Source: Promicromonospora iranensis
Lineage (GTDB): Bacteria; Actinomycetota; Actinomycetes; Actinomycetales; Cellulomonadaceae
Reading direction: 5' to 3'
Length of the DNA stretch: 64,000 bases
Assembly (NCBI RefSeq): GCF_028994805.1
Contig: NZ_JAJQQP010000010.1
Span: 1-64,000, forward strand
A model generated the notes under the pieces. The model worked only from the letters and a program-made list of their open reading frames with translations. It ran no database searches and was not told the DNA's origin. The first letter of the stretch is position 1. Each line of letters opens with the position of its first letter. The translations under genes were made by a program, and so were the position numbers. Positions 5,080 through 27,661 of this stretch are shown here, one piece after another.

Positions 5080-5139
5080 GAGAGTTCTTTCTCCTGGGTA
5101 CGGACGCTGCAGTGGTCGGGCTCGATGAGGGAGCTCGTT

Positions 5140-5195
5140 CGCCCGCTTCTGCGGGCGGGCCGGTGGTGCGGGCATGGCAGTGCCTGCACCACCGG
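5140..5195 (-). terminator. Double hairpin downstream of the ROK regulator
   Basis: A 15-bp stem with one G-T pair (5160-5174 with 5181-5195, loop TGGCAG) is followed by a 7-bp stem with a 4-base loop (5140-5157). It lies about 160 bases beyond the ROK stop at 5353 and before the next minus-strand gene. Sequence and layout match the hairpins at 2077-2131, so the pair was copied together with the GH49 gene. Confidence 0.65.
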
Positions 5196-9071: not shown

Positions 9072-9981
9072 CCTCTCCCCTGGCACCGCCACGTCCGCCA
9101 CAGATGACATCACTCCAGCACCCGCCAGACAGCTGCGCACCCGAGGCGGCTCCCGCTCCCGGCGCGGGATCAGCGGCTGGATCGTGCTCCTGATCATCGC
9201 CGCCGCGGCACTTCTCATGATCTTTCCGTTCTGGATCGCGATCATCAACGGGTTCAAGCCCGCAGCCGACTACATCCAGGACGGCCCGATCTCGCTGCCG
9301 AGCCAGCTCGACTTCTCCGCACTCGTGGACTTCTGGCGCGGTGTCGACTTCAACCGGAAGCTCCTCAACAGCGTCGCCATCTCCGGCAGCGTGGCGCTCA
9401 TCGCAGCGGTGCTCTCGCTGCTGAGCGCCTTCGCGATCGGAATCGGGCGCATCAAGGGAAGGGTGTGGATCCTGGCGGTCTTCATGGTCGCTTTTACCAT
9501 CCCGCAGGAGGCGCTCGTCTACCCCCTGTTCGTCCTGACCCGCGACCTCGGCCTCTACGACACCCTGGCCGGCGTCATCATCATTCTCGCCGTCCTGCAG
9601 AGCGCGTTCGGGACCTACATGCTCTCGTCCGTCCTGGGAGCGTTCCCCAAGGAGATGCTCGAGGCCGCGCGCCTGGACGGTGCAAACAGGCGCCAGATCC
9701 TCGGGCGGATCGTCCTACCCCTGACCCGGCCCACCTTGTCGGTGCTGGTCACGTTCTTCTTCATCTGGACATGGAACGACTTCTTCCTGCCCCTGATCCT
9801 GCTGCCCTCCGCCGATAACCAGACCGTGTCGGTTGCCCTCGGCGCGCTCTCCGGCCAGTACACCTCGGACCCGACCGCACTGGCGGCGGCCTCCCTCGCC
9901 GGCATCCTGCCCGCCCTGGTCTTCTTCCTCATCTTCCAGCGCACGCTCATGCGTGGCGTCAACCTCGGCGCCGTCAAGTAA
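9058..9981 (+). CDS. Sugar ABC transporter permease (MalG/UgpE type)
   Basis: Second channel subunit of the importer, 307 residues. A hydrophilic N-terminal tail of about 45 residues precedes six predicted membrane segments. The EAA motif reads EMLEAARLDGANRRQILGRIVLPL. Starts inside the end of the preceding gene (14-base overlap) with AGAAGGG as ribosome-binding site. About 115 bases separate it from the GH13 gene; no hairpin is seen there, so the operon probably continues. Confidence 0.93.
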   Translation: MTVDNLSPGTATSATDDITPAPARQLRTRGGSRSRRGISGWIVLLIIAAAALLMIFPFWIAIINGFKPAADYIQDGPISLPSQLDFSALVDFWRGVDFNRKLLNSVAISGSVALIAAVLSLLSAFAIGIGRIKGRVWILAVFMVAFTIPQEALVYPLFVLTRDLGLYDTLAGVIIILAVLQSAFGTYMLSSVLGAFPKEMLEAARLDGANRRQILGRIVLPLTRPTLSVLVTFFFIWTWNDFFLPLILLPSADNQTVSVALGALSGQYTSDPTALAAASLAGILPALVFFLIFQRTLMRGVNLGAVK

Positions 9982-10096
9982 AGCCCCAGCCCTGGCCCAT
10001 GCCCGCAGCCCGGTTGACCGCAGCCCGCTACCAGGCCAGGACCCATCCCGATCCCGGCCGATCCCGGGTCCAGCCGACCACCCACAAGGACAGCAC

Positions 10097-11833
10097 ATGA
10101 CGCTCACGCGGACCGACCATGACACGACCACAACCGATGCCCAGTGGTGGAAGAGCGCCGTCGTCTACCAGATCTACCCCCGATCGTTCGCAGACTCGAA
10201 CGGTGACGGCATCGGCGACCTGCCCGGCATCCGCAGCCGACTGGACCACCTGCAACGACTCGGCATCGACGTCATCTGGCTCTCCCCGATCTACCGCTCG
10301 CCCCACGCCGACAACGGCTACGACATCAGCGACTACCAGGACATCGACCCGGTCTTCGGAACCCTTGCCGACTTCGACGGCCTCCTCGCGGACGTTCACC
10401 AGCGTGGCATGAAGCTCGTCATGGACCTCGTCGTCAATCACACCAGCGACGAACACCCTTGGTTCCGCGAGTCGCGGTCGAGCAGCGACAACCCCAAGCG
10501 CGACTGGTACTGGTGGCGACCCGCGCGCGACGGTTTCGAACCCGGCGACCCAGGGGCCGAACCGACCAACTGGGAGTCTTTCTTCTCGGGCCCCACCTGG
10601 ACGCTCGATCCGATCACCGGCGAGTACTACCTGCACCTGTTCGACCCCAAGCAGCCCGACCTCAACTGGGAGAACCCCGAGGTTCGCCACGCCGTGTACG
10701 CCATGATGCGCTGGTGGCTCGACCGGGGCGTCGACGGCTTCCGCATGGACGTCATCAACCTCATCTCAAAAGACACAACGCTTCCTGATGGCGCACCGGG
10801 AGCCTCTGGGCTGGGCAACGGGTTCCCCCACTATGCGAACGGTCCACGCATTCACGAGTTCATGCAGGAGATGCATCGTGAGGTCTTCGCCGGGCGGGAC
10901 GGGCAATACCTCACGGTCGGGGAGATGCCTGGCGTCACGTGGCAGGACGCGGTCCTGTTCACCGATCCCGCGCGGCACGAGCTCGACATGGTGTTCCAGT
11001 TCGAGCACGTCAACCTCGACCACGGTCCGGGCGGCAAGTTCGACCCCCGCCCGCTGCGGGTGTCCGACCTCAAGGCCTCCCTCGGGCGCTGGCAGCGCGA
11101 GCTGGGCACGGCCGGCTGGAACAGTCTCTACCTCGGAAACCATGACCAGCCGCGCAGCGTCTCCCGGTTCGGCGACGACGGTGCGCACTGGCGCGAGTCC
11201 GCCACGGCTCTGGCCACCGTGCTGCACATGCACCGTGGCACGCCCTACGTCTACCAGGGCGAGGAGATCGGCATGACCAACGTGCCCTTCGCCACCGCCG
11301 AGGACCTGCGCGACATCGAGTCGCTCAACCACTACCGCAAAACTGTCGCGACCGGTCAGGACCCCGAGCGCGCCATGGCGGCCATCCGACACATCGGACG
11401 CGACAACGCACGCACACCGGTGCAGTGGGACGACGGCCCCCAGGCCGGTTTCACGACCGGGACAGCCTGGATCGGCGTCAACCCGAACCACACCTGGCTC
11501 AACGCCGCCGGCCAGTACGACGACCCCGAGTCTGTCTTCTGCCACTACCAGCGCCTCATCGAGCTACGGCGCACACTTCCCGTCGTCGCGCACGGCGACT
11601 TCCAGATGCTCCTGGCCGACCACCCCGCCGTGTACGCCTACCAACGCCAGCGCGAAGGAACGACGCTGCTCGTCGTGGCTAACCTCGCGAGCGAGCAGGC
11701 AGACGTCGCCCTCGACGTCGAGCACTACGACCTGCTGCTGAGCAACATCGAGCCGTACACGCCCTCCACGAACGGGCAGCTCGTGCTTACCCCCTGGGAG
11801 GCCCGGATCTACATCACGACGTCCCCAAGGTGA
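10097..11833 (+). CDS. GH13 alpha-glucosidase (oligo-1,6-glucosidase type)
   Basis: Cytoplasmic enzyme of 578 residues that releases glucose from imported isomalto-oligosaccharides. There is no signal peptide. The GH13 conserved regions are all present: DLVVNHTS, GVDGFRMDVI with the nucleophile Asp218, VGEMPG with the acid Glu276, and GNHDQPR with Asp350. The N-terminal VVYQIYPRSF and the Val after the region II Asp are typical of alpha-1,6-specific members. ATG 10097 lies 7 bases after AAGGACAG. Last gene of the operon, closed by the hairpin at 11864. Substrate preference is inferred from family motifs and the GH49 neighbours. Confidence 0.94.
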   Translation: MTLTRTDHDTTTTDAQWWKSAVVYQIYPRSFADSNGDGIGDLPGIRSRLDHLQRLGIDVIWLSPIYRSPHADNGYDISDYQDIDPVFGTLADFDGLLADVHQRGMKLVMDLVVNHTSDEHPWFRESRSSSDNPKRDWYWWRPARDGFEPGDPGAEPTNWESFFSGPTWTLDPITGEYYLHLFDPKQPDLNWENPEVRHAVYAMMRWWLDRGVDGFRMDVINLISKDTTLPDGAPGASGLGNGFPHYANGPRIHEFMQEMHREVFAGRDGQYLTVGEMPGVTWQDAVLFTDPARHELDMVFQFEHVNLDHGPGGKFDPRPLRVSDLKASLGRWQRELGTAGWNSLYLGNHDQPRSVSRFGDDGAHWRESATALATVLHMHRGTPYVYQGEEIGMTNVPFATAEDLRDIESLNHYRKTVATGQDPERAMAAIRHIGRDNARTPVQWDDGPQAGFTTGTAWIGVNPNHTWLNAAGQYDDPESVFCHYQRLIELRRTLPVVAHGDFQMLLADHPAVYAYQRQREGTTLLVVANLASEQADVALDVEHYDLLLSNIEPYTPSTNGQLVLTPWEARIYITTSPR

Positions 11834-13046: not shown

Positions 13047-16000
13047 TCAGCCCGCAGCCCCATAAGAAGCCGTCCTGTCGCCCATGACCGTCTCGCCCCC
13101 GACCACCCCGGTGACGGTGACCGTCACCTCGCCGGCCGGGATCGACGCCTGGCGCGAGTTCATCGACACGTTCGCCGACGCTCCCGGCTGCACCGCGGTG
13201 AACGACCTCGAGCCATAGGCTGTCTCGACCTCCAGGTCGAGTGGGATCCCCGCACCGTTCGTCACCGCGACGGAGACGTACTGCTTCCCCGCCAGGGTGC
13301 GCGTCGTGGCGGACACCGACACCTGCCGGATCACCCTCCACTCGAGCTGACCAGCTGCGGCCTGGAGCACGCGCTGGGCCTCGTCGGCCTCGTCCTGCGT
13401 CGTCCGGTCAGCCGCGGCGATCCGCCTCGCCTCGTCGAGCGCGGCACGGAAGACGGCGAAGTCGATGGAGACGTACCGGTCCTCGCCGGCGAGCAGCGGT
13501 GCGGCGTCGTCGACGGCCGCGGTCAGGCCGGTGAGGTCGACCTCGGGGCCCTCCTGCGGTTCCGGGCCGAGCTCGAACCACTGCAGGTTCGCGACGTAGT
13601 TGAACTCCTGACCCGAGACGGCGTCCGCTCGCATGACCACGATCACTGTGTGCGTGCCCGAGACCGCCTCGTCGAGCTCCGCGGTCGTCTCCACGTAGTT
13701 GGCCCACCCGCCCGTCTTCGGCAGGTCGACGGTCCCGACCCTCGTCGCCTCGCTCACCTCGTCGAGGTAGAACTCGAGCCGGCGGTTGTCGCCCACGCGG
13801 TCGTCACGGGTGGATGCGCTCACCGTGACCTGGGTGAGGGGGTCCGGGCCGAGATCCCGACCGTCGTAGGTCAGCCGGCCACCGTCCCAGGTGCCGCCGA
13901 CGTTGCCGGCGGGCGGCTCACCGCCCTCCTTCTTCAGGCCGTTGCCGTTGTCGGCGTCATAGGTCTCGGCCTCGATCCGCACCGGTGCGGCCGTCTCGGG
14001 GCCGTCCTCGGCCGTCTTCATGAACTGCGCCCAGTCGAGATTCGCGACCCACGAGTTCGGTTGGGACGGGTCGGGCGTACCGCCGAAGACGAGGTAGATC
14101 CGGTTCGACCCGTCGAGCGCCTCGCGGTCGTCGACCGTCGCCTCGGCGGTGACGTAGTCGTTCCACCCGTCGGTGGTCTCCAGATCGACACGGGCGGCGA
14201 CCGGACCGTCCACGGCACCGACACGCACCTCGACAAACTCGTCCGTGGCGCTGTCTCCGGGATGGTTGGCGTGGCGCAGCGTGACCCGCTGAGGGAGCTT
14301 CCCTCCGAAGTCGATGCCGTCGTACGCGATCCAGGAACCCACCTGGACGCCGCCGATGTTGCCGTTCTCGGGGCTCAGCCTTCCGCCGGACGAGGCGTCG
14401 AACTCCTCCGCCTCGAGCACCCGGTAGGGCGTCCCCGCGATCTGCAGGGCGTCCGCCGTCCTCGTGAGCCGGTCGAGCGCCGCCCGCAGGTCGTCGTCCG
14501 AGGCCGACTCGTTCGCGAGAGTCTCCGTCGCGCCGTCACGGGCCTTCTCGAAGGCGGAGAAGGATGCCGCGGAGTACGCCCCACGGACGACGAGCTCGGC
14601 CTCGGCCAGCAGCTCGCCCAGCTTCTCGCGCCACCGCTGGTCCCGCTCGATCGTGACGGTCGCCAGGCCCGAGATCCCGTCGCCGCGGACGCCCGCCGCC
14701 GCCGTCCCGTCGAAGGCCGCGTCCGCGAAGTCCAGGCCGAAGGTCGCGCGCTGCGCGTCCCCGAGCGAACCGGTCAGCCGGAGCGTCGCGCTGTCCGCGT
14801 CGTCCAGGACCGCGGTCGCCGTCACGCTCTCGGGGAGGCCGGGAAGCGCCAGGGCGCCGTCTGCGACGAGATCCCGCCCCTTCGCCCCCGCGAAGCGTGC
14901 CCCACTCAGCGTGAGCGTCGCGGAGACGTCGACCGCACCGTCCGCTGCCGCCTTGAGCCGCGTCGGGTCCATGCTCAGCGTCGCGCCCTCGAAGTTCACC
15001 CGGAACGCGAGCTCGCGGGTGCCGGTCGAGGGTGCGCGCGAGAAGGCCTTGTCGGAGATCGTCACCGTGAGGTCGTCGATGCCGTCCAGCGCCCCGGACC
15101 GCTCCGCGGAACCCTCGAGCGACAGCCGCACGCGGCGGTCTGCCGTGCGCTCCGCCACGAAGGTCAGGCCCGCGGGCACGTTCTCGGCGGTGATGGCATC
15201 CGCGAGACTGTCACCGTCCGCTCCTGCGAACGTGCCGTTCGCGAGTCGCAGGTCGATGCTGTTGCCGATCGTTCCGTCACCGGCCCGCGCCTCGGTGAAC
15301 GTCCGCGAGGACACCGAGACGGCGCTGATCGGGTCGTAGACCGAGCTCGGCAGCTCGTCGCTCAGCGACGGCGCCGCGACCGAGTCGGCTGCCCAGCCCG
15401 AGGGCTCCTCCCCCATCCGGAAGTCCAGCTCGCCACCGGCGGTGAGCTGGTCGTACGTCAGCCAGGTGCGGTCGAACGCCTCGCCGTTCAGGCTCGCCGA
15501 CTGGATGTAGTAGGCGTCGGGCGACACCCCGTCCGCGGAGATGTCGAAGGTGCGGCCGGAGGGATAGCTGATCCGCACGTTCTCGAAGAACGGCGTGCCG
15601 ATCTGGTACTCGTCGGATCCGGCGGCCACGGGGAACAGCCCCAGGGCGGCCGCGACGAAGGTGGACGACATCGTCCCGGTGTCGTTGTCCATCGTGGGCA
15701 GGAAGCCCTGCGGGTCGTTCTTGAACACCTTCGTCTTCACGGGCGGCGTGAACTCGCCGCCGCCCGACGGCACCTCGTGGGTACCGCCGGTCGCGATGTA
15801 CCGGTTCCACGTCTCCTTCGTGTAGATGTTCCGCACCCAGTGCTGGGTCCGCGCAGGGGCTCCGACGTAGTTGAACAGGTACGGCGCCTGCAGGTCGATC
15901 TCGTTCGTGTTGGCGTGCAGCATGCGCTTGCCGTCCTCGGGCGCCTGCTCGCCGAACATGAAGCTGAGCGCCTCCCGCGTGGTCTCCTCGCCGCCCATCT

Positions 16001-17744
16001 TGTCGATGAGCCCGCCCATGTCGGCCGCGGCGTACCAGTGGTACTGCCACAGCGTGCCCTGGTAGAGGTTCGCAGCTTCGAACCGCTCGGGATCCGCGTC
16101 GACCCAGGCGCCGTTCGCGTCCTTGGGGAAGATCAGCCCGGTCCTGGTGCCGTCGGCCAGGGTGACGGCGTTCGGCTTGAACAGGTTCGTCCAGTTGGCG
16201 GCGCGCAGGCGGTAGTGCTGCGCCTCGTCCGTCTTCCCGAGCGCGTCGGCGATCGTCGCCATGGCCCAGTCGTCGTAGGAGGTGCCGAGCGTGTCGTCGA
16301 CCTCGTTCGCGATGTAGCCGCGGCGTGCGTTCCCCTCGTCGGCGTAGCCGCCCTGCGACTGCGAGACGAGGGCGGGCCAGGCCTGGCCGAGACCGCGCAG
16401 CTGCGCGCCCTTGGCGACCGCGTCGGCGACGACGATCGCGGCGCGCTCGAAGCGCACGGTGGGCACGGAGTGGGTGACGTTCGACAGGGACCCCTTGCCG
16501 GTGCTCGCGAACGATCCGTAGAGGTCGACGACCGACTGGGCCATGTCGCGGAACACCTCCGGGTAGCCGATCGCGAGGATCTCGTACTTGCGGAAGTCGT
16601 CCCAGAATCCCCAGCCGTCATAGTGCGTGTAGCCGTCGGCCTGGTGCACCTCGCCGTCGAGGCCGCGGTACGTGCCGCTCGTGCTCGTCGCGTTCACCGG
16701 CGTCCCGAACATGCGGTACAGGTGCGTGTAGAACAGCGTCTGCAGCTCGCCGTCCGGGTCGCTCGTCCCGGATGCCGTCACGGCGAGCCGGCCGAGGATC
16801 TCGTTCCATGCGGCCCTCGTCTCCTGGCGCACCTGCTCGAAGGAGCGGTCCCCCATCTCGGCGGCCAGGTCGATCTTCGCCTGCTCGACGCTGATGGGCG
16901 AGATGGCCACCGTGAGCCCGACCTGCTGCCCCGCGTCCACCTCGAAGTCGAGGATCGCACCGATGTCGGTGCCGTCGCGCTGCGGTTGCCCGGAGAGGTC
17001 ACCGGAGCCGCCCCAGGTGCGCACACCCGCCGCCGGTGCCGTCGTCTCCACGTAGTAGTGCATCCGGTAGTCGTAGCCGTTGAAGTGGCCGGTGAAGTCA
17101 CCCGAGAGCGCGACGCGTCCGTCGTCCAGCGTCTCGTAGCCGAGCGTGGCGCCCCTGCGGCTCGTGAAGTTGTTGCGCAGGTCGACGACGAGGGAGGCGG
17201 TTCCCGCCTCCGGGAAGGTGAAGCGGTCCTGTCCCGTGCGCACGTCGGTGGTCGCCTCGGCGCGGATCGCGCCGGCGTCGGTCGCGAGGTCGACGGCGTA
17301 GTACCCCGGCTCGGCCTTTTCGTCCGCGTGGCTGTAGTCCTTCGCGTAGGTGCCGGTTCCCGGACGACTCGTGTACTTCTGGTACGTCGGCACGACGAGG
17401 AGGTCGCCGCCGGCACCCGAGCCGCCGACGCCGTTGAGGTTGGTGTGCGTGAAGCCCGAGATCTGGTCCTCGGCGTAGTCGTAGCCCGAGTGCGAGCGGC
17501 CCGGAGCCGTCATCGGGTTGATCTTGACGATCGAGGTCGGTGCCTCCGCGCCGACGAGGTCCTGGCCGAAGTCGTCCTCGGTCGAGACGAAGGGGTTGAC
17601 GAGACCGGCGTAGTCGGTCGCGTCCGCCACCGCAGCGGCGGCGGACGGTGCGGTGCCCGCGGAGACGCTGGACAGGCCGGCTCCGATCAGCGCGACGGCC
17701 GCGACCGCGGCGGTCAGACGAAGAGAACGAGATGCGAGGGACAT
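13047..17744 (-). CDS. Giant secreted GH92 alpha-mannosidase with two CBM6 domains and FIVAR helices
   Basis: Exported 1565-residue enzyme expected to remove alpha-1,2/1,3-mannose from mannan or N-glycans in a calcium-dependent reaction. Signal peptide about 1-38. The GH92 N-terminal beta domain begins at LVNPFVSTEDDFGQD; the catalytic (alpha/alpha) barrel ends with the hallmark MDNDTGTMSS (Asp686 and Asp688) and ALGLFPVAAGSDEYQIG. Then follow Ig-like repeats (about 800-1030), a FIVAR-type helical segment (about 1035-1098), two CBM6 modules (about 1105-1245 and 1254-1395, the second starting VRIEAETY), a second helical segment, and a C-terminal beta module (about 1470-1565) shared with the phosphoesterase encoded upstream. 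ATG 17744 follows GGAGAAAG. Lies 28 bases after the DUF916-like gene, so co-transcribed with it. Confidence 0.93.
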   Translation of the reverse strand: MSLASRSLRLTAAVAAVALIGAGLSSVSAGTAPSAAAAVADATDYAGLVNPFVSTEDDFGQDLVGAEAPTSIVKINPMTAPGRSHSGYDYAEDQISGFTHTNLNGVGGSGAGGDLLVVPTYQKYTSRPGTGTYAKDYSHADEKAEPGYYAVDLATDAGAIRAEATTDVRTGQDRFTFPEAGTASLVVDLRNNFTSRRGATLGYETLDDGRVALSGDFTGHFNGYDYRMHYYVETTAPAAGVRTWGGSGDLSGQPQRDGTDIGAILDFEVDAGQQVGLTVAISPISVEQAKIDLAAEMGDRSFEQVRQETRAAWNEILGRLAVTASGTSDPDGELQTLFYTHLYRMFGTPVNATSTSGTYRGLDGEVHQADGYTHYDGWGFWDDFRKYEILAIGYPEVFRDMAQSVVDLYGSFASTGKGSLSNVTHSVPTVRFERAAIVVADAVAKGAQLRGLGQAWPALVSQSQGGYADEGNARRGYIANEVDDTLGTSYDDWAMATIADALGKTDEAQHYRLRAANWTNLFKPNAVTLADGTRTGLIFPKDANGAWVDADPERFEAANLYQGTLWQYHWYAAADMGGLIDKMGGEETTREALSFMFGEQAPEDGKRMLHANTNEIDLQAPYLFNYVGAPARTQHWVRNIYTKETWNRYIATGGTHEVPSGGGEFTPPVKTKVFKNDPQGFLPTMDNDTGTMSSTFVAAALGLFPVAAGSDEYQIGTPFFENVRISYPSGRTFDISADGVSPDAYYIQSASLNGEAFDRTWLTYDQLTAGGELDFRMGEEPSGWAADSVAAPSLSDELPSSVYDPISAVSVSSRTFTEARAGDGTIGNSIDLRLANGTFAGADGDSLADAITAENVPAGLTFVAERTADRRVRLSLEGSAERSGALDGIDDLTVTISDKAFSRAPSTGTRELAFRVNFEGATLSMDPTRLKAAADGAVDVSATLTLSGARFAGAKGRDLVADGALALPGLPESVTATAVLDDADSATLRLTGSLGDAQRATFGLDFADAAFDGTAAAGVRGDGISGLATVTIERDQRWREKLGELLAEAELVVRGAYSAASFSAFEKARDGATETLANESASDDDLRAALDRLTRTADALQIAGTPYRVLEAEEFDASSGGRLSPENGNIGGVQVGSWIAYDGIDFGGKLPQRVTLRHANHPGDSATDEFVEVRVGAVDGPVAARVDLETTDGWNDYVTAEATVDDREALDGSNRIYLVFGGTPDPSQPNSWVANLDWAQFMKTAEDGPETAAPVRIEAETYDADNGNGLKKEGGEPPAGNVGGTWDGGRLTYDGRDLGPDPLTQVTVSASTRDDRVGDNRRLEFYLDEVSEATRVGTVDLPKTGGWANYVETTAELDEAVSGTHTVIVVMRADAVSGQEFNYVANLQWFELGPEPQEGPEVDLTGLTAAVDDAAPLLAGEDRYVSIDFAVFRAALDEARRIAAADRTTQDEADEAQRVLQAAAGQLEWRVIRQVSVSATTRTLAGKQYVSVAVTNGAGIPLDLEVETAYGSRSFTAVQPGASANVSMNSRQASIPAGEVTVTVTGVVGGETVMGDRTASYGAAG

Positions 17745-17772
17745 GACCAGTCTTTCTCCGGATCGGGTGGTG

Positions 17773-18843
17773 TCAGCTGTGGTGGGAGGGCGTGCGGGCG
17801 AGATCTGCCGCCGCGACCGAGGCACCGGCCTCGGCGAGCGCCTCCTCGCGTGCTCGCGCGACCAGCTCCGCGGTCCGTCGCTTCTCGCGACGACGGCGCC
17901 AGACGCTCCAGGTCGTCAGCAGCGCCGCCAGGACCAGGACGAGGAGCTGCGGCCAGGGCATGGCGAGAACTGTCGTCCGCGCGCTCGCGCGCTCGACGCC
18001 GGCGAACGAGAGCTCGTCGGAGATGGGCAGGGGCTGTGCCACCACGCTCACGTCGTAGGCGAGCAGTGGCCAGGCGTCCCGGAAGCGGACGGTCCCGTGC
18101 CGCGTCTCCCCCGGCGCGATCTCGACGATCTCGTCGCCGCGCAGGGTGCGGTCCCCGAGACCGAACGGGCCGGACAGGGAGATCTCAGGCCGCGCGTTCA
18201 AGCGGGTGTTTCCCGTGTTCTCGAGCTCGTACACGACGTCGACCGTGCCCGCCTCGAAGGGGTTCGGGTCGCCCGTGTAGGACGCCGATGCCGTGAGGCC
18301 GAGCGCTGGGGCGAGCTCGCCCAGCACGCGCGTCATCACGCGGAATCCCACCCGCGACTCGACCGCGACCTCGCCTCCGCCCGTCGAGTGCACGCTCGCG
18401 GCGACGCCGGCGGCGTGGTCGCCCGGTTCGGCGTCGTCAGGAACGGTCACCGTGAACGGCACGACCTCGGCCGCGCCGGCGGCGACGGTCACGCTCTCCG
18501 GCAGCTCGATCCACGTGCCTGCCGCGACCGACTCCTGGTCGGAGGGAAGCATGTTGAAGCGGCCCGTGTCGGTGAAGTATCCGTCGGCGGAGGTCAGCAG
18601 GAACTCCACCGCGTCGTCGCTGTGGTTGACGACGACCATGTGCTCGGTGCGCGACTGGCCCGGGTCCGCCGCCCACTCGACCCAGGCCCGGCCGTCCTCA
18701 CCCTTCTCGTCGCCCGGGCGCACCGACCACGTCACGACGTCGTCCTGTGCGGCGCGGGCGGGCGCGGCGGCGGCGGGCGCGGCCGCCAGCGACGAGGCGG
18801 CGACGAGCGTCAGGACAGCGAGCGGGACGAGCGGGTTCTTCAC
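17773..18843 (-). CDS. Membrane-anchored DUF916-like (WxL-interacting protein type) surface protein
   Basis: Predicted cell-surface anchor or assembly partner, 356 residues. A signal peptide (1-32) precedes two Ig-like domains: the first about 38-170 (WVEWAADPGQSRTEHMVVVN, a typical DUF916 pattern), the second about 180-285. One membrane helix (about 290-312, PWPQLLVLVLAALLTTW) and a strongly basic tail (WRRRREKRR) follow, so both domains face outward. In Firmicutes such proteins hold WxL-domain proteins on peptidoglycan in Csc clusters; the role here is inferred by analogy. GTG 18843 has AGGAG 8 bases upstream. Sits between a small exported protein and GH92. Confidence 0.7.
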   Translation of the reverse strand: MKNPLVPLAVLTLVAASSLAAAPAAAAPARAAQDDVVTWSVRPGDEKGEDGRAWVEWAADPGQSRTEHMVVVNHSDDAVEFLLTSADGYFTDTGRFNMLPSDQESVAAGTWIELPESVTVAAGAAEVVPFTVTVPDDAEPGDHAAGVAASVHSTGGGEVAVESRVGFRVMTRVLGELAPALGLTASASYTGDPNPFEAGTVDVVYELENTGNTRLNARPEISLSGPFGLGDRTLRGDEIVEIAPGETRHGTVRFRDAWPLLAYDVSVVAQPLPISDELSFAGVERASARTTVLAMPWPQLLVLVLAALLTTWSVWRRRREKRRTAELVARAREEALAEAGASVAAADLARTPSHHS

Positions 18844-18931
18844 GGGACGGGCTCCTGGGATCGGGGCAGGGCGACGAGAGCCGGGCGGGGAGCCGGAAGC
18901 GTGTCCGGCCTCCCCGCCCGACGCGAGGACG

Positions 18932-19543
18932 TCACTCGAAGAGCGACAGGGTGATCGTCGAGGAGTAGCTTCCGGCCGCCACGTCCGCGGGGACCGCGAG
19001 CTTCAGGTCAGCGACCGCGCTGAACCTGCCGCCTCCGGCGTTGGCCTCGGCCGACTCCGCGAGGTACAGCAGCTCCTGGTCGGCCAGACCCGGCGCCGAC
19101 GGAGCCACGTCGCCGCCGACCTCGACGAAGGGCTCGCCCTCCCCCTCGCCCTCGACGAGCTGCGGCGACCAGCCGAGGTGGCTCGCCTCGATCGAGTTCT
19201 CGCCCTGCGCGTCGTGGAAGTCGCTCGCGGTGCCCATCACGTACCAGAAGGCGCCGGCCGGGATGTCTTCCGGCGCACGGGTGTCGGTCACCGTGACCTT
19301 CGGCAGCGTGCCCGTGAAGACGCGCTCCAGATCGGTCGACTCGCCCTCCGTGAGGGCGGTCGAGTCGCTCTCGACCGTCATCGCGAGGGATCCCGGGCCG
19401 GTGAGCGGCTCGATCTCGACGCCGACGTCGACGCTCTGGGTGTCCTTCTCGTCGTCGGCCATGGCCGCCGAGCCTGCCGACGCCAGCAGGGCGGCGCCGA
19501 AGGCGATCATGCTGCCGCGCAGCATGAGGGAGTTCTTGTTCAC
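18932..19543 (-). CDS. Small exported surface protein, possibly WxL-like
   Basis: A 203-residue secreted protein with a signal peptide (about 1-30, FGAALLASAGSAAMA) and an all-beta, acidic mature region without cysteines. It has the composition and gene position of WxL-domain proteins, which are encoded next to DUF916 proteins, and contains one GWSPQL segment. The diagnostic WxL motifs are not clear, so the family call is weak. GTG 19543 follows GAGGAGAG. Spacing of 71 bases to the phosphoesterase gene upstream and 88 bases to the DUF916-like gene downstream indicates one operon. Function unknown; probably a structural or adaptor component. Confidence 0.6.
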   Translation of the reverse strand: MNKNSLMLRGSMIAFGAALLASAGSAAMADDEKDTQSVDVGVEIEPLTGPGSLAMTVESDSTALTEGESTDLERVFTGTLPKVTVTDTRAPEDIPAGAFWYVMGTASDFHDAQGENSIEASHLGWSPQLVEGEGEGEPFVEVGGDVAPSAPGLADQELLYLAESAEANAGGGRFSAVADLKLAVPADVAAGSYSSTITLSLFE

Positions 19544-19614
19544 GTCGTTCTCTCCTCGTTCCAGGTTCTCTCGTGAGGCCGTACGGCGTCACGCAGTGAT
19601 TCAGGCGTGCTGCC

Positions 19615-22344
19615 TCAGCCGGCGGCCGGGTAGGAAGCGGTCGTCGAGGTCGTCACCGTCTCGCCGCCGATCCGCCCCGTGGCGGTGACCGTCACGTCGC
19701 CGCCCGGGATCGCGGCCGCACGCGAGCTCATCGCCACGCTCGCCGACTTCCCGGGCTGCACCGCGGCGAACGACTTGGCTCCGTAGGCCGTCTCCACCAC
19801 GACATCCACCGGGGCGTCCTCGTTGTTCGTCACGACCGTCGACACGTACTGCGTGCCCCCGAGCGTGCGCGTCGACACGTCCACCGACACGTCCAGCTCC
19901 GTCGTCGCGTCCGCCTTGGCGAGCACGACCTCGTCCACGACGCTGTTCACCGGGGCGGCGACGCCGTTGGCCTGGCTACGCAGGGTGCGCACCGTGAGCG
20001 TCTCGTCGGTGACCTCGATCGCCGAGTAGTTGCGCACCTTCTCCTGGTTGATCACCGAGGCGAACCACGCTTCGGGTGCGCGGGTGTCGTAGTACTTCGA
20101 GCCGCTGGACGAGTTCGCCGTGACGTACAGCGCCTCGCCGTCCTCGGCCTCGACGCGTTCCTGGCCGGCGACCTCGGTCGGGTCGGCGAGCTCGCCGTCC
20201 TTGATCAGGTAGCTGCGCGTGTAGTTGTGGTCGTGCCCCATCAGCACCATGTCGAAGCCCAGCTCCGAGATCTTCGCCGGCATGTTGGTGCGCCGGTCGA
20301 TGATGTCGCCGTCGCTCGTGTGCGCCGCCACCGAGTAGATCGAGTGGTGGAAGGCGAGCACCTTCCACCTCGCCTTGTCGCCCTGCTCCGCGATGACCTT
20401 CTCCAGGAACGCGTTGTGGGAGTCGAAGTCGCGGCTGTTGGAGTTGATGTTGAGGAACAGCACGTCCTTGTAGAGGAACCAGTAGTCGCCGCCCGACGAC
20501 GTGCCGTTGGACGCCCCGCCAGACTCCAGGTCCTCGTTCGGCACGTTGAAGTGCTGCTCGTACGCCTTCGACCCGACGTCGTGGTTGCCGTTGGTCACGA
20601 CGAGCGGGACGCTGCGGACCTGCTCCGGCTTCAGGAAGGAGTCGTACTGGGCTTCGCTCGAGGCGGTGTCGACCTGGTCACCCGCCGAGAACAGCAGCTC
20701 GGCGTCCGGATAGGTCTGCGTCGCGACGTTCACCGTGTCGATCCAGCCGGCTTCGTCGCGCGCGAGGTTCCCGGAGGCGCCCACCTGGGGGTCACCGAAG
20801 AACAGGAAGGAGAAGTCGCCCGAGAAGTCCTGCGTGCGGAAGGTGTGGACGGCGGACCAGCCGGTCTCCTCGCTGCCGACGCGGTAGGCGTACTCGGTGT
20901 TCTCCTCGAGGCGGTCGAAGGTGGCGTCGCGGAAGAACTCGCCGCTCGTGGTGCCACCGCTCCTCGTCGCCTCGACCGTGCGGGCCGACGCGGGGAAGAC
21001 GCCGTCGACGACGTCCGCGGCCTCCGCGAGCTGCGCGCCCTGCGGCACGTCGACGTTCGAGTACCAGGTGAGGTTGCGCTCGGCCTGGGTGGAGCCGACG
21101 TGGAGGGCGATGTCAGCGATCTCCGGTGCGGGGGCCGGGCCCGTCGGGGCCAGCGACGTCAGGTCGAGGTAGATGTCGCTGCTGGTCTCGCGGTCCTGGT
21201 AGAGCGCGACGGCGATGGTGTTGCCGCCAGACTTGAGCGCGTCCGCCGGGATCGTGAACGTGCTGGTCAGGGGGTTGCCGTTGCTCGCGCCTGCGTAGGT
21301 CAGGTTCTGGTTCGCGGCGTCGTCCACGCGGTCGTCCACGAACCCGGCGACCTTCTCACCGTTGACGTAGACGCGTGCGGCGTCGTCGTAGGTGATCTTC
21401 CCCTGGAGCGACTCGAGCTGCGCGAGCTGCCCGTCCGAGATCTCGAACTCGTTGCGGAGGTGGTAGGTCGGCACGGTGTTCGGCGAGCCGTCCAGCGTGT
21501 ACTGCAGCAGCGTGTTCGCGACGAAGCCACCGCCGAGGTCTGCGGCGCCGCGCTTCGACCCGAAGGGCCCGACGGCCTCCTTCCACGCGGAGTCGTCGAA
21601 GTCGGCCGTCGTCCAGGACAGCGAGCCGTCACCGGACGGGTCCGTGCCGTCGTCGGAGTACTTCCAGGCGTCGGCAGTCGTGAGGAACGTCTCGGGCAGC
21701 GACTCGGGGCCGAACTCGAGGTAGTCGATGTTGCCGACGTAGTTCGGGTAGCTTCCGCTCTCGCCCGGCTTCGGGTCGACATGCATGACCACAATCACCG
21801 TGTGCTCGCCGGAGACCTCCGTCAGCAGGTCCGACGTCGTCTGGCCGTACGAGGCCCAGTCGCTGCCCGTCGGCTCCAGCGCGATGGTCGCGGCCTTGTT
21901 CTCGGCGCTCTTCTCGTCGAGGTAGACGTCGATCGACGGGTTCACGCCGCTGCGGCTCTCGTTGACGACGTAGCGCGCCGTGAGCGTGGACAGCGGAGTG
22001 CTGCCGAGGTCGACGTCGTCGAACCAGATCTCGGCGCCGTTGTAGGTGTTCTTCACGCGGGATCCGCCCGAGGCACCGGCATCCGGTTCGACGCCGGTGT
22101 TCATCACCCGGCCGTCGATCACGTCGCCGTTGTTGTTCCCCGTGTACGTCTCGGCCTCGATGCGGACCGGCGTCACGCCGACCTCCGCGGACGGCGCAGC
22201 GGAGGTCTCGTCGGCCGCCGTGGCGGGGAGGGAGGCGGCGAGTGCTCCCGCCACCAGCGAGGCGAGGACGAGGCCCGCGAGCCCACGCCGCCCGCTCCGG
22301 TGCTTGCGCGAGTCGCCGACCGGAGTCGGCGACGCTGTGGTCAT
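19615..22344 (-). CDS. Secreted purple-acid-phosphatase-like metallophosphoesterase with CBM6
   Basis: Exported phosphohydrolase of 909 residues that binds carbohydrate. Signal peptide about 1-45. CBM6 module (about 55-205, starting VRIEAETY), then a beta domain (about 210-390), a fibronectin-like PAP N-terminal domain (about 400-500) and the calcineurin-like core: FGDPQVG (Gln where His is usual), FSAGDQVD, NGNHD, AFHHSIY and GHDHNYTRS, i.e. the two-metal site. The last about 90 residues repeat the C-terminal module of the GH92 protein (TRTLGGTQYVSTVVTN, VETAYGAKSF, VQPGKSASVAM). ATG 22344 has no strong ribosome-binding site; a TTG at 22365 is an alternative. The substrate may be a phosphorylated glycan, inferred from CBM6 and GH92. 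Confidence 0.88.
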   Translation of the reverse strand: MTTASPTPVGDSRKHRSGRRGLAGLVLASLVAGALAASLPATAADETSAAPSAEVGVTPVRIEAETYTGNNNGDVIDGRVMNTGVEPDAGASGGSRVKNTYNGAEIWFDDVDLGSTPLSTLTARYVVNESRSGVNPSIDVYLDEKSAENKAATIALEPTGSDWASYGQTTSDLLTEVSGEHTVIVVMHVDPKPGESGSYPNYVGNIDYLEFGPESLPETFLTTADAWKYSDDGTDPSGDGSLSWTTADFDDSAWKEAVGPFGSKRGAADLGGGFVANTLLQYTLDGSPNTVPTYHLRNEFEISDGQLAQLESLQGKITYDDAARVYVNGEKVAGFVDDRVDDAANQNLTYAGASNGNPLTSTFTIPADALKSGGNTIAVALYQDRETSSDIYLDLTSLAPTGPAPAPEIADIALHVGSTQAERNLTWYSNVDVPQGAQLAEAADVVDGVFPASARTVEATRSGGTTSGEFFRDATFDRLEENTEYAYRVGSEETGWSAVHTFRTQDFSGDFSFLFFGDPQVGASGNLARDEAGWIDTVNVATQTYPDAELLFSAGDQVDTASSEAQYDSFLKPEQVRSVPLVVTNGNHDVGSKAYEQHFNVPNEDLESGGASNGTSSGGDYWFLYKDVLFLNINSNSRDFDSHNAFLEKVIAEQGDKARWKVLAFHHSIYSVAAHTSDGDIIDRRTNMPAKISELGFDMVLMGHDHNYTRSYLIKDGELADPTEVAGQERVEAEDGEALYVTANSSSGSKYYDTRAPEAWFASVINQEKVRNYSAIEVTDETLTVRTLRSQANGVAAPVNSVVDEVVLAKADATTELDVSVDVSTRTLGGTQYVSTVVTNNEDAPVDVVVETAYGAKSFAAVQPGKSASVAMSSRAAAIPGGDVTVTATGRIGGETVTTSTTASYPAAG

Positions 22345-22528
22345 CAGCAAGGGGTCACACGCCAATCTTGAGTTCCGTGCAGGGGTGAGAGCGCATCCAT
22401 AGCGCCCGACCCGTCACCTTCCTCGCCCTGTATGACCCGATCGGGGCGATTCGATGAACAACAGGTGCCACACGGGGGAAGGATGACCGACGCGAGCGGG
22501 CGCGACGTCGGCGCACCCGGTTCGACAC

Positions 22529-23341: not shown

Positions 23342-23450
23342 TTGTCAGGAGCGGCGCGATGTGAAGTTTCGCAAGTCCTTCATCACCCTCGACGACGCGG
23401 GAACGAGATGAGCCAAGCACCCCATGGTGGGCGGCTCCGAGAGGACAACG

Positions 23451-26400
23451 ATGTTCCATCCTTCTTCCAGCCCAGATTCGACGGCCAATCCCCAACCAGC
23501 GGTGCGACCGCACGGCGATCACCGGCTCGGGTCCCGACGCCGACGCCGGGAATGGCGTTCACACATGGCTGTTCTCACGGCAGTCGTGGTCGCACTCTCC
23601 ACGGCCAGTGCCGCCCCGGCCGTGGCGGCCGAACCGACGCCCGTTGGTGCCGGGAGCTACACGACCGATCAGGTCGGCCCCGCACCCGAGGGGTGCGCCC
23701 CGCTCGCCACCGACGCTCGCGCGTTCATCACCGACTCGGCGCCGGAAGGGGCTGTGCCGACGAACGACTGGTGGTCCTCGTTGAGCTTCAAGAAGTTCGA
23801 CTGCTCGATGAGCGAGCCCTTGCACGCGCACCCCGTGTCGTACAAGCCGTCGCCCGAGGGCCTCGGGCTCTCGTACACCCAGCAGCCCACCCTCTACGGA
23901 ACGCCCGGTGGGATCGGGGAGTTTCACTACCCGTACAGCGAGGACCTCGTCGTCGGGGTAGCGGGTCTGAACGCATCCGTCGCCGAGGTCGCCGACTGGA
24001 GCGACTGGACGGTCACCCCCTCCTGGAGCGACGGAGCACGCTCCATGACGGCGACGATCGGGCACGGGCTTCCCGTCACGTGGTTCGAGATGACCGGCGG
24101 CGATGCGCGCCTCACCGGTGCGTCGGACCTTCGTGTGTGGCTCCGCGACGGCGCCCGGATCGGATTCAGCACCGGCGGCGCCGACTACGTCGCGTTCGCG
24201 CCGACCGGATCGTCCTGGTCAACCTCTGGCAGCGTGCTGAGCAGCAACCTCTCCGGCAAGGGCTACCTCTCTGTCGCCGTACTTCCGACAACACCGGACG
24301 ACGACGACGCGGCGCGGACCGCCCAGGCGGACTCGTACACCCCGTACGCCTATGTCGAGGTGACCGGAACCCGCGCCGACTACGAATACGACGAGGCGAC
24401 GAGCATCGTGCGTACGACCTACTCCTTCGAGACCGAGGCGCACGAGGGCACCAACGCGGGCACGATCGCGGCGCTCTACCCGCATCAGGACGTGTACCTC
24501 GAGGGATCTGCCGGCGACGGGCCGGGCGGCGGCGCGGCCTCCGATCGCGACTACGAGTCCGCACGCGGCACGATGAACACGCTCATCGGAGCGACGTCGT
24601 TCACGACAGAGACTCCGTTCACCGGTGTCCTGCCGGAGGTCCCCGCGGTCGCGACCGCAGAGGGCGAGGCGAACGCGCGGCTCGACGCCCTGCTCGACGC
24701 CGAGGCGGACGACCCGATGAGCATCGACGCCACCGACACCTACTGGACCGGAAAGGCGCTCGGCCGCGCGGTGCGGATCGCGGAGATCGCCGATCAGCTC
24801 GACCGCACGAGCGTGCGCGATACGGCGCTCGAACAGATCGAGGCCACGCTCACGGACTGGTTCACCGCGAGCCCCGGCGAGACGGAGCAGCTGTTCGCGT
24901 ACAACGAGAACTGGGGCACCCTGGTGGGCTTCCCCGCCGGATACGGCTCGGACAAAGAGCTGAACGACCACCACTTCCACTACGGCTACTTCATCGTGGC
25001 AGCCGCCACGCTGGCGCGGTTCGATCCGGAATGGGCCACCGACCAGGAGTTCGGCGGCATGGTCGACGAGCTGATCGCGGATGCCAACAACTTCGATCGC
25101 ACCGACCTGCGCTACCCGTATCTCCGTGACTTCGACATCTACGCAGGCCACGACTGGGCGGCAGGCCACGGCGCGTTCGTCAACGGCAACAACCAGGAGT
25201 CGAGCTCGGAGGGCCAGAACTTCGCGAACGGCCTCATCCAGTGGGGTGTCGCCACCGGCGACGACGCCACGCGCGATGCCGGGATCTACCTCTACGCCAC
25301 GCAGACGGCGGCGATCCAGCAGTACTGGTTCGACGGGTCCGGCGCGATGCCCGATGCTTTCGGCCATTCCACCGTGGGCATGATCTGGGGCAGCGGCGGG
25401 GCGTACGCGACCTGGTTCAGCGGTGAGGCCGAGATGATCCAGGGCATCAACACGCTCCCGATCACCGGTGGTCACCTCTACCTGGGCCTCAGACCCGATG
25501 ACGTCGTCGCCAACTACGACGAGATGGTCGCGGCGAACAACGGCGGTCCGACGGTCTGGCAGGACATCCTGTGGTCGTATCTCGCGCTCGGGAACGGTCA
25601 GCGAGCGCTCGCCGCACTCGATGCCGACCGCGAGTACCCGGTGGAGGAGGGAGAGAGCCGCGCGCACACGTATCACTGGATCGCCAACCTTGCCGGGCTG
25701 GGCACGGTCGACCCGGCGGTGACGGCCGACTCCCCGGTGGCAGCCGTCTTCACCAAGAACGGGGCGCGCACCTACGTGGCCTCGAACATCACGCAGTCGC
25801 CCCTCACGGTCGGGTTCTCGGACGGGACCTCGCTCACGGTGCCGGTGGGGAAGACCGTCACCTCGGGTGCTCACACGTGGAGCGGGGGCGGCGCCGCGAG
25901 CGGCACCGACCCGACGGACCCGACCGACCCGACGGACCCGACGGACCCGACGGATCCGACAGATCCGCCTGTCCGTGCCGCGACGACGTTCTACCTGACC
26001 GCAGACGGCGCCCTGGCCACCGAGCCCGGCTCTGCTACCACGGCCGTGCTGGGCGCGCGTTCAGGACCGGATGCGGTCGGTGATCCGAGCACCGGGCTCA
26101 CCGCCACGCTGGAGCACGTCACGGGCGAGTTCGGCGGTCTGCGCACCGCGTTCGATCTCGGCGTGGACGCAGAAGCGAATGTCGGCAACGGCACGCGACT
26201 GCGCGTCTCCTACGATCTCAGCGGCGACGGCTCCTTCGACCGGGTGGAGTCGTACAGATACTTCGCCACGGACCCGGTCCCGGGCTTCGAGCGCTACACC
26301 TCTGTGAACCAGGCGCTGGAAAGCTCCGAAGGCACCCTCGGCGACCTCAGGGACGGCACGATCCAGGTCGAGATCTGGAACGTGGTCGGCAACGCGCCCT

Positions 26401-26462
26401 CGCTCGTGAACCTCGAGGACTCCGTGCTGGAGGTGCCGTTCGGGCCGTTGACGGTGAGCTGA
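23451..26462 (+). CDS. Secreted GH81 endo-beta-1,3-glucanase
   Basis: Extracellular enzyme of 1003 residues that cleaves beta-1,3-glucan such as yeast wall glucan or laminarin. It has a long basic n-region (38 residues including SRRRRR) before the hydrophobic signal core (MAVLTAVVVALSTASAA); a later start at 23565 is possible, but GAGAGG before ATG 23451 supports the longer form. The GH81 domain (about 90-810) carries NDHHFHYGYF (about 505) and HDWAAGHGAF then NGNNQESSSEGQN (about 578-590), the segments holding the catalytic Asp and Glu residues. A (TDP)7 linker at about 819-839 joins an unassigned beta-rich domain of 160 residues. Probably regulated by a LacI-type repressor at the upstream palindrome and closed by the hairpin at 26480. 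Confidence 0.93.
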   Translation: MFHPSSSPDSTANPQPAVRPHGDHRLGSRRRRREWRSHMAVLTAVVVALSTASAAPAVAAEPTPVGAGSYTTDQVGPAPEGCAPLATDARAFITDSAPEGAVPTNDWWSSLSFKKFDCSMSEPLHAHPVSYKPSPEGLGLSYTQQPTLYGTPGGIGEFHYPYSEDLVVGVAGLNASVAEVADWSDWTVTPSWSDGARSMTATIGHGLPVTWFEMTGGDARLTGASDLRVWLRDGARIGFSTGGADYVAFAPTGSSWSTSGSVLSSNLSGKGYLSVAVLPTTPDDDDAARTAQADSYTPYAYVEVTGTRADYEYDEATSIVRTTYSFETEAHEGTNAGTIAALYPHQDVYLEGSAGDGPGGGAASDRDYESARGTMNTLIGATSFTTETPFTGVLPEVPAVATAEGEANARLDALLDAEADDPMSIDATDTYWTGKALGRAVRIAEIADQLDRTSVRDTALEQIEATLTDWFTASPGETEQLFAYNENWGTLVGFPAGYGSDKELNDHHFHYGYFIVAAATLARFDPEWATDQEFGGMVDELIADANNFDRTDLRYPYLRDFDIYAGHDWAAGHGAFVNGNNQESSSEGQNFANGLIQWGVATGDDATRDAGIYLYATQTAAIQQYWFDGSGAMPDAFGHSTVGMIWGSGGAYATWFSGEAEMIQGINTLPITGGHLYLGLRPDDVVANYDEMVAANNGGPTVWQDILWSYLALGNGQRALAALDADREYPVEEGESRAHTYHWIANLAGLGTVDPAVTADSPVAAVFTKNGARTYVASNITQSPLTVGFSDGTSLTVPVGKTVTSGAHTWSGGGAASGTDPTDPTDPTDPTDPTDPTDPPVRAATTFYLTADGALATEPGSATTAVLGARSGPDAVGDPSTGLTATLEHVTGEFGGLRTAFDLGVDAEANVGNGTRLRVSYDLSGDGSFDRVESYRYFATDPVPGFERYTSVNQALESSEGTLGDLRDGTIQVEIWNVVGNAPSLVNLEDSVLEVPFGPLTVS
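25905..25967 (+). repeat. Seven 9-bp tandem repeats encoding a (Thr-Asp-Pro)7 linker
   Basis: Seven in-frame copies of ACN-GAY-CCG in the GH81 gene, between the catalytic and the C-terminal domain. It is a flexible interdomain linker; copy number may vary between strains. Confidence 0.9.
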
Positions 26463-26689: not shown

Positions 26690-27661
26690 ATGAAGAAGTT
26701 GCTCAGCAGGCTCGCAGCCGTCGCAGGTGTGGTCGCGCTGGCGACCACCGCGACCGTCGTCGCGCCGCAGGAGAAGGTGCCGACCCTCGCGACGGCGTCC
26801 GCCATCACGTGCCAGAGCGGCGGCGACGAGTGGGCATCGCCGACCTACACGAACAACTTCACGGGGCGGATCGACGGCGACCACTACCTGGCGAGCTACG
26901 TGCCGCAGTCGGTGACGACGTGGCACGACTGGAACGGCGGCACGGCGGACGTGTTCCTCGTCGCGATGTACCACAAGGACGGCGGGAACAGCCTCGTCTA
27001 CGCGATGACGCCAGGTGGGAACGTGGTCGGCGGGTTCAAGATCAAGGAGACCCACGCCGGCGGCATCACGATCCGCGGCAAGTACATCTACGTCACGGAC
27101 GAGGACAACACGAAGGTCCGCCGCTACGCGAAGTCGTCCGTCCGGAGCGCGGTGGCGCAGCGCAGGACCAGCGCCGGTCGCATGCCGTACGTGTCCTACT
27201 ACGGCACGCTCCAGAATCTGGGCTACGCCGCGAGCTTCATGTACGCGTACGACGGCAAGCTGTACGCCGGGAAGTTCAGCTCGTCCTCCCGCGACTGGAT
27301 GTACCGGTACGACTTCGGCACGGACGGCCGCCTCTCGCGGGACACCGGCTGGGCGCGGCGTCAGGTGCCGCTCAAGACACAGGGCCTCGTGGTGCTGAAC
27401 AACCGCTACCTCTTCTCGACGTCGTGGGGCCGGGGCAACCGCTCGAACGTCTACGTGACCGGCCGGGACTACACGACGAACTTCGAGACGCAGGCACGGT
27501 CCCGGTGCTTCCAGGCGCCGCCGATGTCCGAGGGCATGGCGGTCTACCAGGGGAAGGTCTACCTGCTGTTCGAGAGCGGAGCCTCGAAGTACGACGGCAG
27601 CACGTGGCGCACGAAGAAGGTGCACGTCGCATCCGTCTCGAGGCTGGCCGCGCTGGTGTGA
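26690..27661 (+). CDS. Secreted protein of unknown function, possible beta-propeller
   Basis: Exported protein of 323 residues: Lys-start signal peptide (1-37, cut near TASA), then a repeating pattern of hydrophobic strands and aromatic-glycine turns (GGNVVGGFKI, GKYIYVTDEDN, DGKLYAGKFSSSS, YQGKVYLLFESG) that suggests a beta-propeller. Two cysteines, one near the mature N-terminus and one in SRCFQAPPMSEG, could form a disulfide closing the propeller. Similar secreted proteins of unknown role occur in Streptomyces (recollection). GGAGG seven bases before ATG 26690 fixes the start. No operon partner; no enzyme motif recognised. Confidence 0.7.
   Translation: MKKLLSRLAAVAGVVALATTATVVAPQEKVPTLATASAITCQSGGDEWASPTYTNNFTGRIDGDHYLASYVPQSVTTWHDWNGGTADVFLVAMYHKDGGNSLVYAMTPGGNVVGGFKIKETHAGGITIRGKYIYVTDEDNTKVRRYAKSSVRSAVAQRRTSAGRMPYVSYYGTLQNLGYAASFMYAYDGKLYAGKFSSSSRDWMYRYDFGTDGRLSRDTGWARRQVPLKTQGLVVLNNRYLFSTSWGRGNRSNVYVTGRDYTTNFETQARSRCFQAPPMSEGMAVYQGKVYLLFESGASKYDGSTWRTKKVHVASVSRLAALV

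Follow-up and report, generated by a model that had tools for sequence, protein, structure and literature searches.

The Csc clusters of Lactobacillales and Bacillales encode the proteins CscA to CscD (PMC1534035). In Firmicutes, CscB proteins are acidic and CscA proteins are mostly basic, with isoelectric points (pI) above 9; CscD is a small LPxTG protein in the clusters of Lactobacillus plantarum (PMC1534035). A conserved Asp-x-Arg has been described before the first WxL motif (PMC1534035). WxL domains have been proposed to attach to peptidoglycan (PMC9772566) and the WxL protein has been proposed to be held by WxLIP, composed of PF06030 (DUF916) and PF11797 (DUF3324) (PMC10599100). More than 91% of the WxL system is reported to be Firmicute (PMC9772566). 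DUF916 and WxL genes have been reported in honeybee-gut lactobacilli (PMC4449606), and for another protein family DUF916 and metallophosphatases are reported to rank with the commonest gene neighbours (PMC12537917). The present study deals with an actinobacterial locus found in a stretch of 64,000 nucleotides, hereafter the window (contig NZ_JAJQQP010000010.1, positions 1 to 64,000 of the forward strand). In this locus, a metallophosphoesterase, a small protein of 203 residues, a membrane-anchored protein of 356 residues (hereafter the anchor) and a GH92-family protein are encoded in a row, and the two enzymes end with the same module of about 92 residues. It appears rather probable that the products of this operon form a complex that degrades glycans at the cell surface, with a WxL/WxLIP-type platform as its base and the enzymes held by the module.

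Relatives of the small protein occur in two layouts. In type A loci, a standalone small WxL-like protein is usually accompanied by an anchor gene and by large enzymes ending with the module. In type B loci, the WxL-like domain forms the C-terminal part of a larger protein (367-1197 residues), without the module. In total, the module was found in 44 of 46 type A loci and in 0 of 66 type B loci, and the proposed link between the module and the pair formed by the small protein and the anchor is upheld.

The anchor and the small protein compared with WxLIP and WxL proteins

The four genes lie on the minus strand in the order metallophosphoesterase, small protein, anchor, GH92. The first three are separated by 71 and 88 bases, and the anchor and GH92 genes abut or overlap, in agreement with the close spacing on one strand noted in the original prediction. 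The first gene (19615-22365, minus; open reading frame (ORF) of 916 residues, with a likely start at the in-frame ATG 22344) encodes a putatively secreted protein where Pfam recognizes CBM_6, Pur_ac_phosph_N and Metallophos. In the last one (13047-17825, minus; ORF of 1592 residues, 1565 from the likely start ATG 17744), also putatively secreted, Pfam recognizes GH92N, GH92, CBM_6 and CBM_35_2, the GH92 N-terminal and catalytic domain matches (PF17678, PF07971) being located at 15816-17603 (minus). The identities first given to the two enzymes, a CBM6 metallophosphoesterase and a GH92 protein, are thus confirmed by Pfam. Between them are the genes of the small exported protein (18932-19543, minus), read as a signal peptide followed by one beta domain, and of the anchor, with two Ig-like domains (17773-18843, minus). 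A signal-peptide-like stretch, as read from the sequence, opens all four proteins. A scan for promoters and terminators gave no promoter-like site, and terminator-like sites on the opposite strand only. An identical four-gene layout is present in Promicromonospora iranensis (L068), the closest named relative found (85-89% identity of the anchor), and in Microbacterium sorbitolivorans (L069), which belongs to another family. At the same places, the phosphoesterase of M. sorbitolivorans is 68% identical to that of the window over 917 columns and its GH92 protein 70% identical over 1250 columns.

Judged by profiles, the 356-residue protein is homologous to WxLIP/CscA, and its suggested relation to DUF916 holds. 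PF06030 (DUF916/WxLIP_PGBD) matches it at 18400-18669 (minus) with 29.1 bits in the genome search, above the cut-off of 27.3, and with 26.5 bits, slightly below it, by hmmscan; all 18 members of the anchor family are matched by the same model with an E of at most 0.01. When the profile of these 18 actinobacterial sequences was compared with nine Firmicute DUF916-DUF3324 proteins, the alignment (hhalign probability 98.7, E 4e-16, 231 columns) spanned both Ig domains. A hydrophobic, presumably transmembrane, segment is located towards the C-terminus (17917-17973, minus; hydropathy peak of 2.01 at residue 291) and is followed by a basic stretch, in line with the membrane anchoring first proposed for this double-Ig protein. 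By the same hydropathy test, the segment was found in 33 of 41 type A anchor ORFs, some of these ORFs being cut short. The resemblance to WxLIP concerns the DUF916 match, the second Ig domain aligned by profile, the C-terminal membrane segment and the adjoining small WxL-like gene. In contrast with WxLIP, the anchor of the window has no PF11797 match: this model stays under its cut-off in all 198 genomes of the order sample, and its weak matches exclude the window's anchor. Also, the basic character of CscA is not found, as the anchor has a pI of 4.65 (4.15-6.21 across 40 anchors). Public plasmid annotation gives two close relatives of the anchor the name 'DUF916 domain-containing protein' and calls the small proteins encoded beside them 'hypothetical protein'.

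The 203-residue protein has no Pfam or NCBIfam match. Yet, on profile evidence, it is a diverged, CscB-like homologue of WxL domains. A profile of the small proteins aligned with nine Firmicute WxL proteins (hhalign probability 93.5, E 2.4e-7, 57 columns). With more sequences, the alignment extended to 113 columns (hhalign probability 95.1, E 3.4e-8), and the two motif regions matched each other in position. In this alignment, D-T-R (19277-19285, minus) is the counterpart of the conserved Asp-x-Arg and W-Y-V (19238-19246, minus) that of the first W-x-L motif. The Asp and Arg residues are kept in 41/41 type A and 15/15 type B alignment rows, and the Trp and Val residues of the first motif in 41/41 type A rows. 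With WxL domains the small protein further shares a G-x-Y..T-L-T end strand, a length of about 170 residues after the signal and a strongly acidic character (computed mature pI of 4.05, which is probably the lower limit of the program). Two differences speak against the assignment. The Pfam WxL model, PF13731, matched none of the 18 small-protein members scanned. Moreover, W-x-V replaces W-x-L at the first motif and the second motif is L-x-L, so that the dual W-x-L is absent. The same Pfam model does exceed its cut-off at related type B C-terminal domains (G182:C278 and G177:C22), which are also matched by the search with the 203-residue protein. AlphaFold2 predicts for the small protein one confident beta domain (residues 53-203; pLDDT 83.7, core mostly above 90). 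Attempts to relate it to a known fold gave a pilin-type domain (CfaE; VIA Z 8.5), cohesin (Z 6.1) and, as the best Foldseek match, the N-terminal domain of GH123 (E 1.3e-3), all too weak to be used. One Firmicute WxL protein compared with the PDB sequences had no relative.

Overall, the initial analogy with the Csc/WxL clusters holds. The locus shares with Csc clusters a DUF916 membrane protein, a small acidic WxL-domain protein, a tandem of same-strand secreted genes and ConA-like or glycan-related partners. A CscD-like LPxTG gene also follows the anchor in 11 of the 40 type A loci having an anchor (1 of 23 in type B). The window itself has no LPxTG gene 60-1200 bases after the anchor. However, the cluster of the window has no CscC (large WxL) protein; its large secreted proteins end with the unrelated module. 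Clear catalytic domains (GH92, GH43, phosphoesterase) are present among the tagged proteins. The WxL motifs are degenerate, the anchor is acidic and the clusters are actinobacterial. The locus may be regarded as a variant of the Csc/WxL clusters, in which the putative docking module is possibly new. The LPxTG-like ORF, a likely CscD counterpart, was seen just after the anchor in L089, L095, L097, L136, L138-L140, L145, L147, L149 and L151. The Firmicute gene order, small WxL, WxLIP and large WxL, was seen in L131 and L133.

The C-terminal module and the two cluster layouts

The sharing of a C-terminal module by two unrelated enzymes, as originally reported, is confirmed. Copy 1 corresponds to residues 825-916 of the phosphoesterase ORF (19618-19893, minus), and copy 2, 63% identical to it, to residues 1501-1592 of the GH92 ORF (13050-13325, minus). 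The two copies align over 92 residues (E 8.6e-29) and each of them reaches the last residue. The AlphaFold2 model displays seven strands and no helix (pLDDT 97.4). Among 71 pair-linked copies, 69 are within three residues of the C-terminus of the protein. None of the 71 module-bearing ORFs, including the two of the window, has an LPxTG motif in the last 60 residues or a hydrophobic segment in the last 400, which distinguishes them from sortase-anchored enzymes and extends to the whole set the lack of membrane helix and sortase signal first remarked in the two enzymes. Two cysteines, one near the start and one at the end of the module, are both present in 62 of the 71 copies, both missing in seven, and reduced to one in two. 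Such a distribution fits a disulfide. The seven cysteine-free copies, which belong to the window, to P. iranensis, to M. sorbitolivorans and, for one of them, to G126, form a single clade.

Neither Pfam nor NCBIfam contains a model of the module, and no description of it was found in the literature searched. Its assignment to a known domain was tried and rejected: Pfam and NCBIfam scans of 63 copies gave only scattered matches; of the 25 families that each scan listed, the best had an E of about 0.001. Comparison of its profile with PDB sequences gave two designed proteins and one match at E 2.1. The 50 structure matches listed by VIA (Z 8.7-10.5) are generic Ig-like domains, including those of GH2 and transglutaminase proteins. 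The second of them, a domain of Trueperella lacto-N-biosidase (9fyn; Z 10.0, rmsd 2.2, 84 aligned residues, 26% identity), stays a lead because it is absent from the sequence-profile matches and no literature support was found for it.

The distribution of the module was followed in loci fetched around the small-protein and anchor matches and in the named relatives, by scanning all open frames with the small-protein, anchor and module profiles. Small-protein relatives were present in 47 genomes of the order sample and anchor relatives in 51. The first set comprised 45 type A loci from 26 genomes or records and 26 type B loci, an anchor being present in the stretch in 40 and 23 of them, respectively; the module was found in 44/45 type A and 0/26 type B loci. 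Later loci added two type B loci of Embleya without the module and 40 more places, of which 38 were type B without the module. A score over 120 defined type A, with the addition by hand of L154, where the small gene is cut by the contig end. L150 and L154 have weaker small-protein matches and were chosen knowing that modules adjoined; without both, the first count becomes 42/43. L099 and L197, which hold both types, were counted as type A. In neither count are L073 and L076, with an anchor match and no small-protein match, and L198, a cut end of a small gene that is probably that of L143. At least G140:C85 among the small-protein match places is outside the counts, and several type B stretches are short contigs. 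Several loci share one genome, and the counts are therefore not independent. In the 38 type A loci of the first set that belong to the order sample, 37 with the module, 58 module copies were seen where 1.41 would be expected from uniform placement. Upstream of the small gene, the closest gene on the same strand carries the module in 34 of the 43 loci where it could be named. Paralogous small-protein clusters were observed in G167 (L087-L089, L135) and in G126 (L146-L150, L102, L154); with both types taken together, small-protein matches number 12 in G126 and 11 in G167, which may be likened to the nine csc clusters of L. plantarum.

The association is also visible at the level of genomes. With full length defined as E under 1e-30, the small protein is found in 19 of the 198 order-sample genomes. 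The module is present in 18 of these 19 genomes, against 13 of the 179 others (Fisher 2.4e-16); because of these figures, the idea that the module would be equally common without the pair, which would have undermined the link, does not hold. In a phylum-wide sample of 396 genomes, the module was found in six and the full-length small protein in four, 4/4 with the module; as the module-bearing genomes recur in the order sample, this adds breadth, not independence. Up to 27 candidates per genome were scored in the order-sample module search, 13 and 7 in the phylum-wide searches, and absences are softer than presences because only part of the first-look candidates of each genome was scored. An improved module profile, trained on pair-linked copies, was run on 18 selected genomes, in which almost every candidate was scored; G045 then drops out.

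Domains were searched in 67 of the 71 tagged proteins, the families being the 25 listed by each scan. GH43 is found on 25/67. Other domains among the matches listed are GH92, GH127, GH20, GH53, GH59, GH3, GH31, GH32 and ThuA/GSDH, along with many LamG and CBM domains. On the type B side, ten proteins carry an alkaline phosphatase, an esterase (three), a ThuA, an HtaA or a GDPD domain, an Ig domain only, or no known domain (two). Type B proteins are an actinobacterial large-WxL family mostly missed by the Pfam WxL model. The fusions to alkaline phosphatase, esterase, ThuA, GDPD and HtaA domains were observed in L104, L155, L157, L158, L160, L163 and L106. Finally, a ThuA domain has a WxL-like tail in L157 and a module tail in L088, the two being 39% identical over 311 residues. 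Mainly because of this tail swap and of the alternation of the two layouts, the module is read as a substitute for the fused WxL domain.

Possible roles of the module

How the complex would be organized can be imagined as follows. The anchor would sit in the membrane, as indicated by its homology and by its hydrophobic segment. The 203-residue WxL-like protein would bind the anchor and probably peptidoglycan, as proposed for its Firmicute relatives. The phosphoesterase and the GH92 enzyme would be secreted and held at the platform by the shared module, for which either the anchor or the small WxL-like protein could be the docking partner. The module would then do the job of the fused C-terminal WxL domain of Firmicute large WxL and type B proteins, and several enzymes could share one platform, even those whose genes lie at other places of the genome. 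The chances are about even that this amounts, in actinobacteria, to an exchangeable tag-and-receptor system for the display of glycan enzymes. In such a system, the usually disulfide-bearing Ig-like module would bind without a covalent bond to a WxL-like receptor, itself retained by a WxLIP-type membrane protein, and would have replaced the fused large-WxL domain, so that many enzymes share one platform. A short C-terminal tag carried by many glycan enzymes, with a separate, here putative, receptor on the cell, recalls the cohesin-dockerin pair. However, the dockerin fold is helical, of the EF-hand type, whereas the module is an all-beta sandwich, and no scaffoldin was seen.

Several other roles may be considered for the module. 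It could be a general Ig-like accessory domain, involved in glycan binding, stability or spacing, and found near the pair through joint transfer or regulation of surface and glycan genes. Such a role would account for the relatives of the module in 12 order-sample genomes without the type A small protein and for its common seven-strand beta sandwich fold, close to many Ig-like domains, and glycan hydrolases, GH43 foremost, make up most of the catalytic domains listed for the tagged proteins. However, it leaves unexplained why the module is absent from the 66 type B loci, whose proteins, several of them enzymes, carry the WxL-like domain, as well as its extreme C-terminal place and the ThuA tail swap, and we consider it unlikely, though the most serious of the alternatives. 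The C-terminal place would also suit a sorting or folding signal, the small protein and the anchor being in that case an export chaperone or maturation station from which the enzymes are then released. Known C-terminal sorting domains lie at the extreme C-terminus, and the best VIA match of the small protein is the CfaE pilin-type domain, with other donor-strand folds below it (middling values). Against release, the papers cited above describe the relatives of the WxL/WxLIP type as proteins that stay on the cell surface, and attachment to the wall is suggested by the LPxTG gene present in 11 of 40 loci; a release station seems improbable. The shared tail could at last result from a recent duplication between neighbouring genes, without a shared function. 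Modules of the same locus are somewhat more alike (mean identity of 44%) than those from other loci of the same genome (39%) or from other genomes (36%). Because the arrangement recurs in 44 loci, in 25 of 26 type A genomes or records and with many different enzymes, this origin is disfavoured and seems very improbable.

The attachment of the enzymes by the module, replacing a fused WxL domain, remains the simplest reading, in which direct docking is an inference. Besides the missing PF13731 match and the altered motifs of the small protein, some observations weigh against it. Two type A loci have no module: L095, of a genome (G077) where none was found genome-wide, and L197, of G126. Conversely, the module was found with type B relatives only in eight genomes (G013, G063, G189, G022, G038, G091, G121, G027) and with no small-protein relative found in G074, G186, G026 and G083. 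Orphan copies mostly score lower, but it is pair-linked copies that served to train the profile. The pair-linked and orphan labels are clustered in a tree built from 98 modules (15 changes versus 23.8 in shuffles), but the two kinds are intermixed. The module family thus extends beyond the pair, and what is claimed is association, not dependence. The distances between small proteins and between modules co-vary modestly (rho 0.376, L154 being outside the set); within-genome shuffles reach this value in 4/1000 cases for all locus pairs and in 79/1000 for the 36 within-genome pairs, and linkage alone may explain the co-variation. Finally, the tail of the window's phosphoesterase is 53% identical to that of its M. 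sorbitolivorans orthologue, less than to the tail of the GH92 protein of the window (62%), although the two orthologues share 68% identity as whole proteins. In the module tree, the tails of the two M. sorbitolivorans enzymes group together as sisters. A shared partner could give such a likeness within one operon; so could gene conversion.

In the literature searched, judged by titles and the starts of abstracts and with most subscription journals outside the coverage, no description of a WxL-like arrangement with module-tagged proteins was found. If the docking of the module is confirmed, large secreted enzymes devoid of sortase signal and membrane helix would be given a named candidate receptor and a named tag, with the type B loci as a natural control. 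The WxL system would have been carried into Actinomycetota with a different attachment of its cargo, and a small docking pair would be useful for the non-covalent display of enzymes.

Further module copies and surroundings of the cluster

Two further, distant copies of the module (32% and 35% identity) are found in this genome away from the pair, on ThuA-type and LamG-type proteins. Among the genomes with type B only, G013, G063 and G189, of one genus, have near-identical orphan diverged modules (L182, L183, L185) at the C-terminus of similar large proteins; Pfam recognizes GH39 in the protein of L182, the one scanned. In G126, L197 (10522-11700, plus) has a standalone small gene next to an anchor gene that is broken over two frames. 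Its 18 kb contain no module, and it possibly is a decaying cluster.

Around the cluster of the window are other genes for glycan enzymes, namely GH81, GH5 with a ricin-type lectin, GH49 of the dextranase type and GH13 (ORFs at 23424-26462 (+), 30998-32524 (+), 2149-5175 (-) and 9833-11833 (+)). None of these genes is among the four places of this genome matched by the module profiles. Yeast phosphomannan was considered as a substrate for the GH92 enzyme and the phosphoesterase; no literature support was found and it is not claimed. An exported-looking protein of 323 residues adjoins the GH81 gene (26690-27661, plus) and is matched neither by Pfam (at 1e-5) nor by NCBIfam (at 0.01). ARAGORN places an undetermined tRNA with a two-base anticodon at 35939-36031 (plus), where it overlaps long ORFs and is probably false. 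The G+C content of the window ranges from 66 to 75% in steps of 4 kb.

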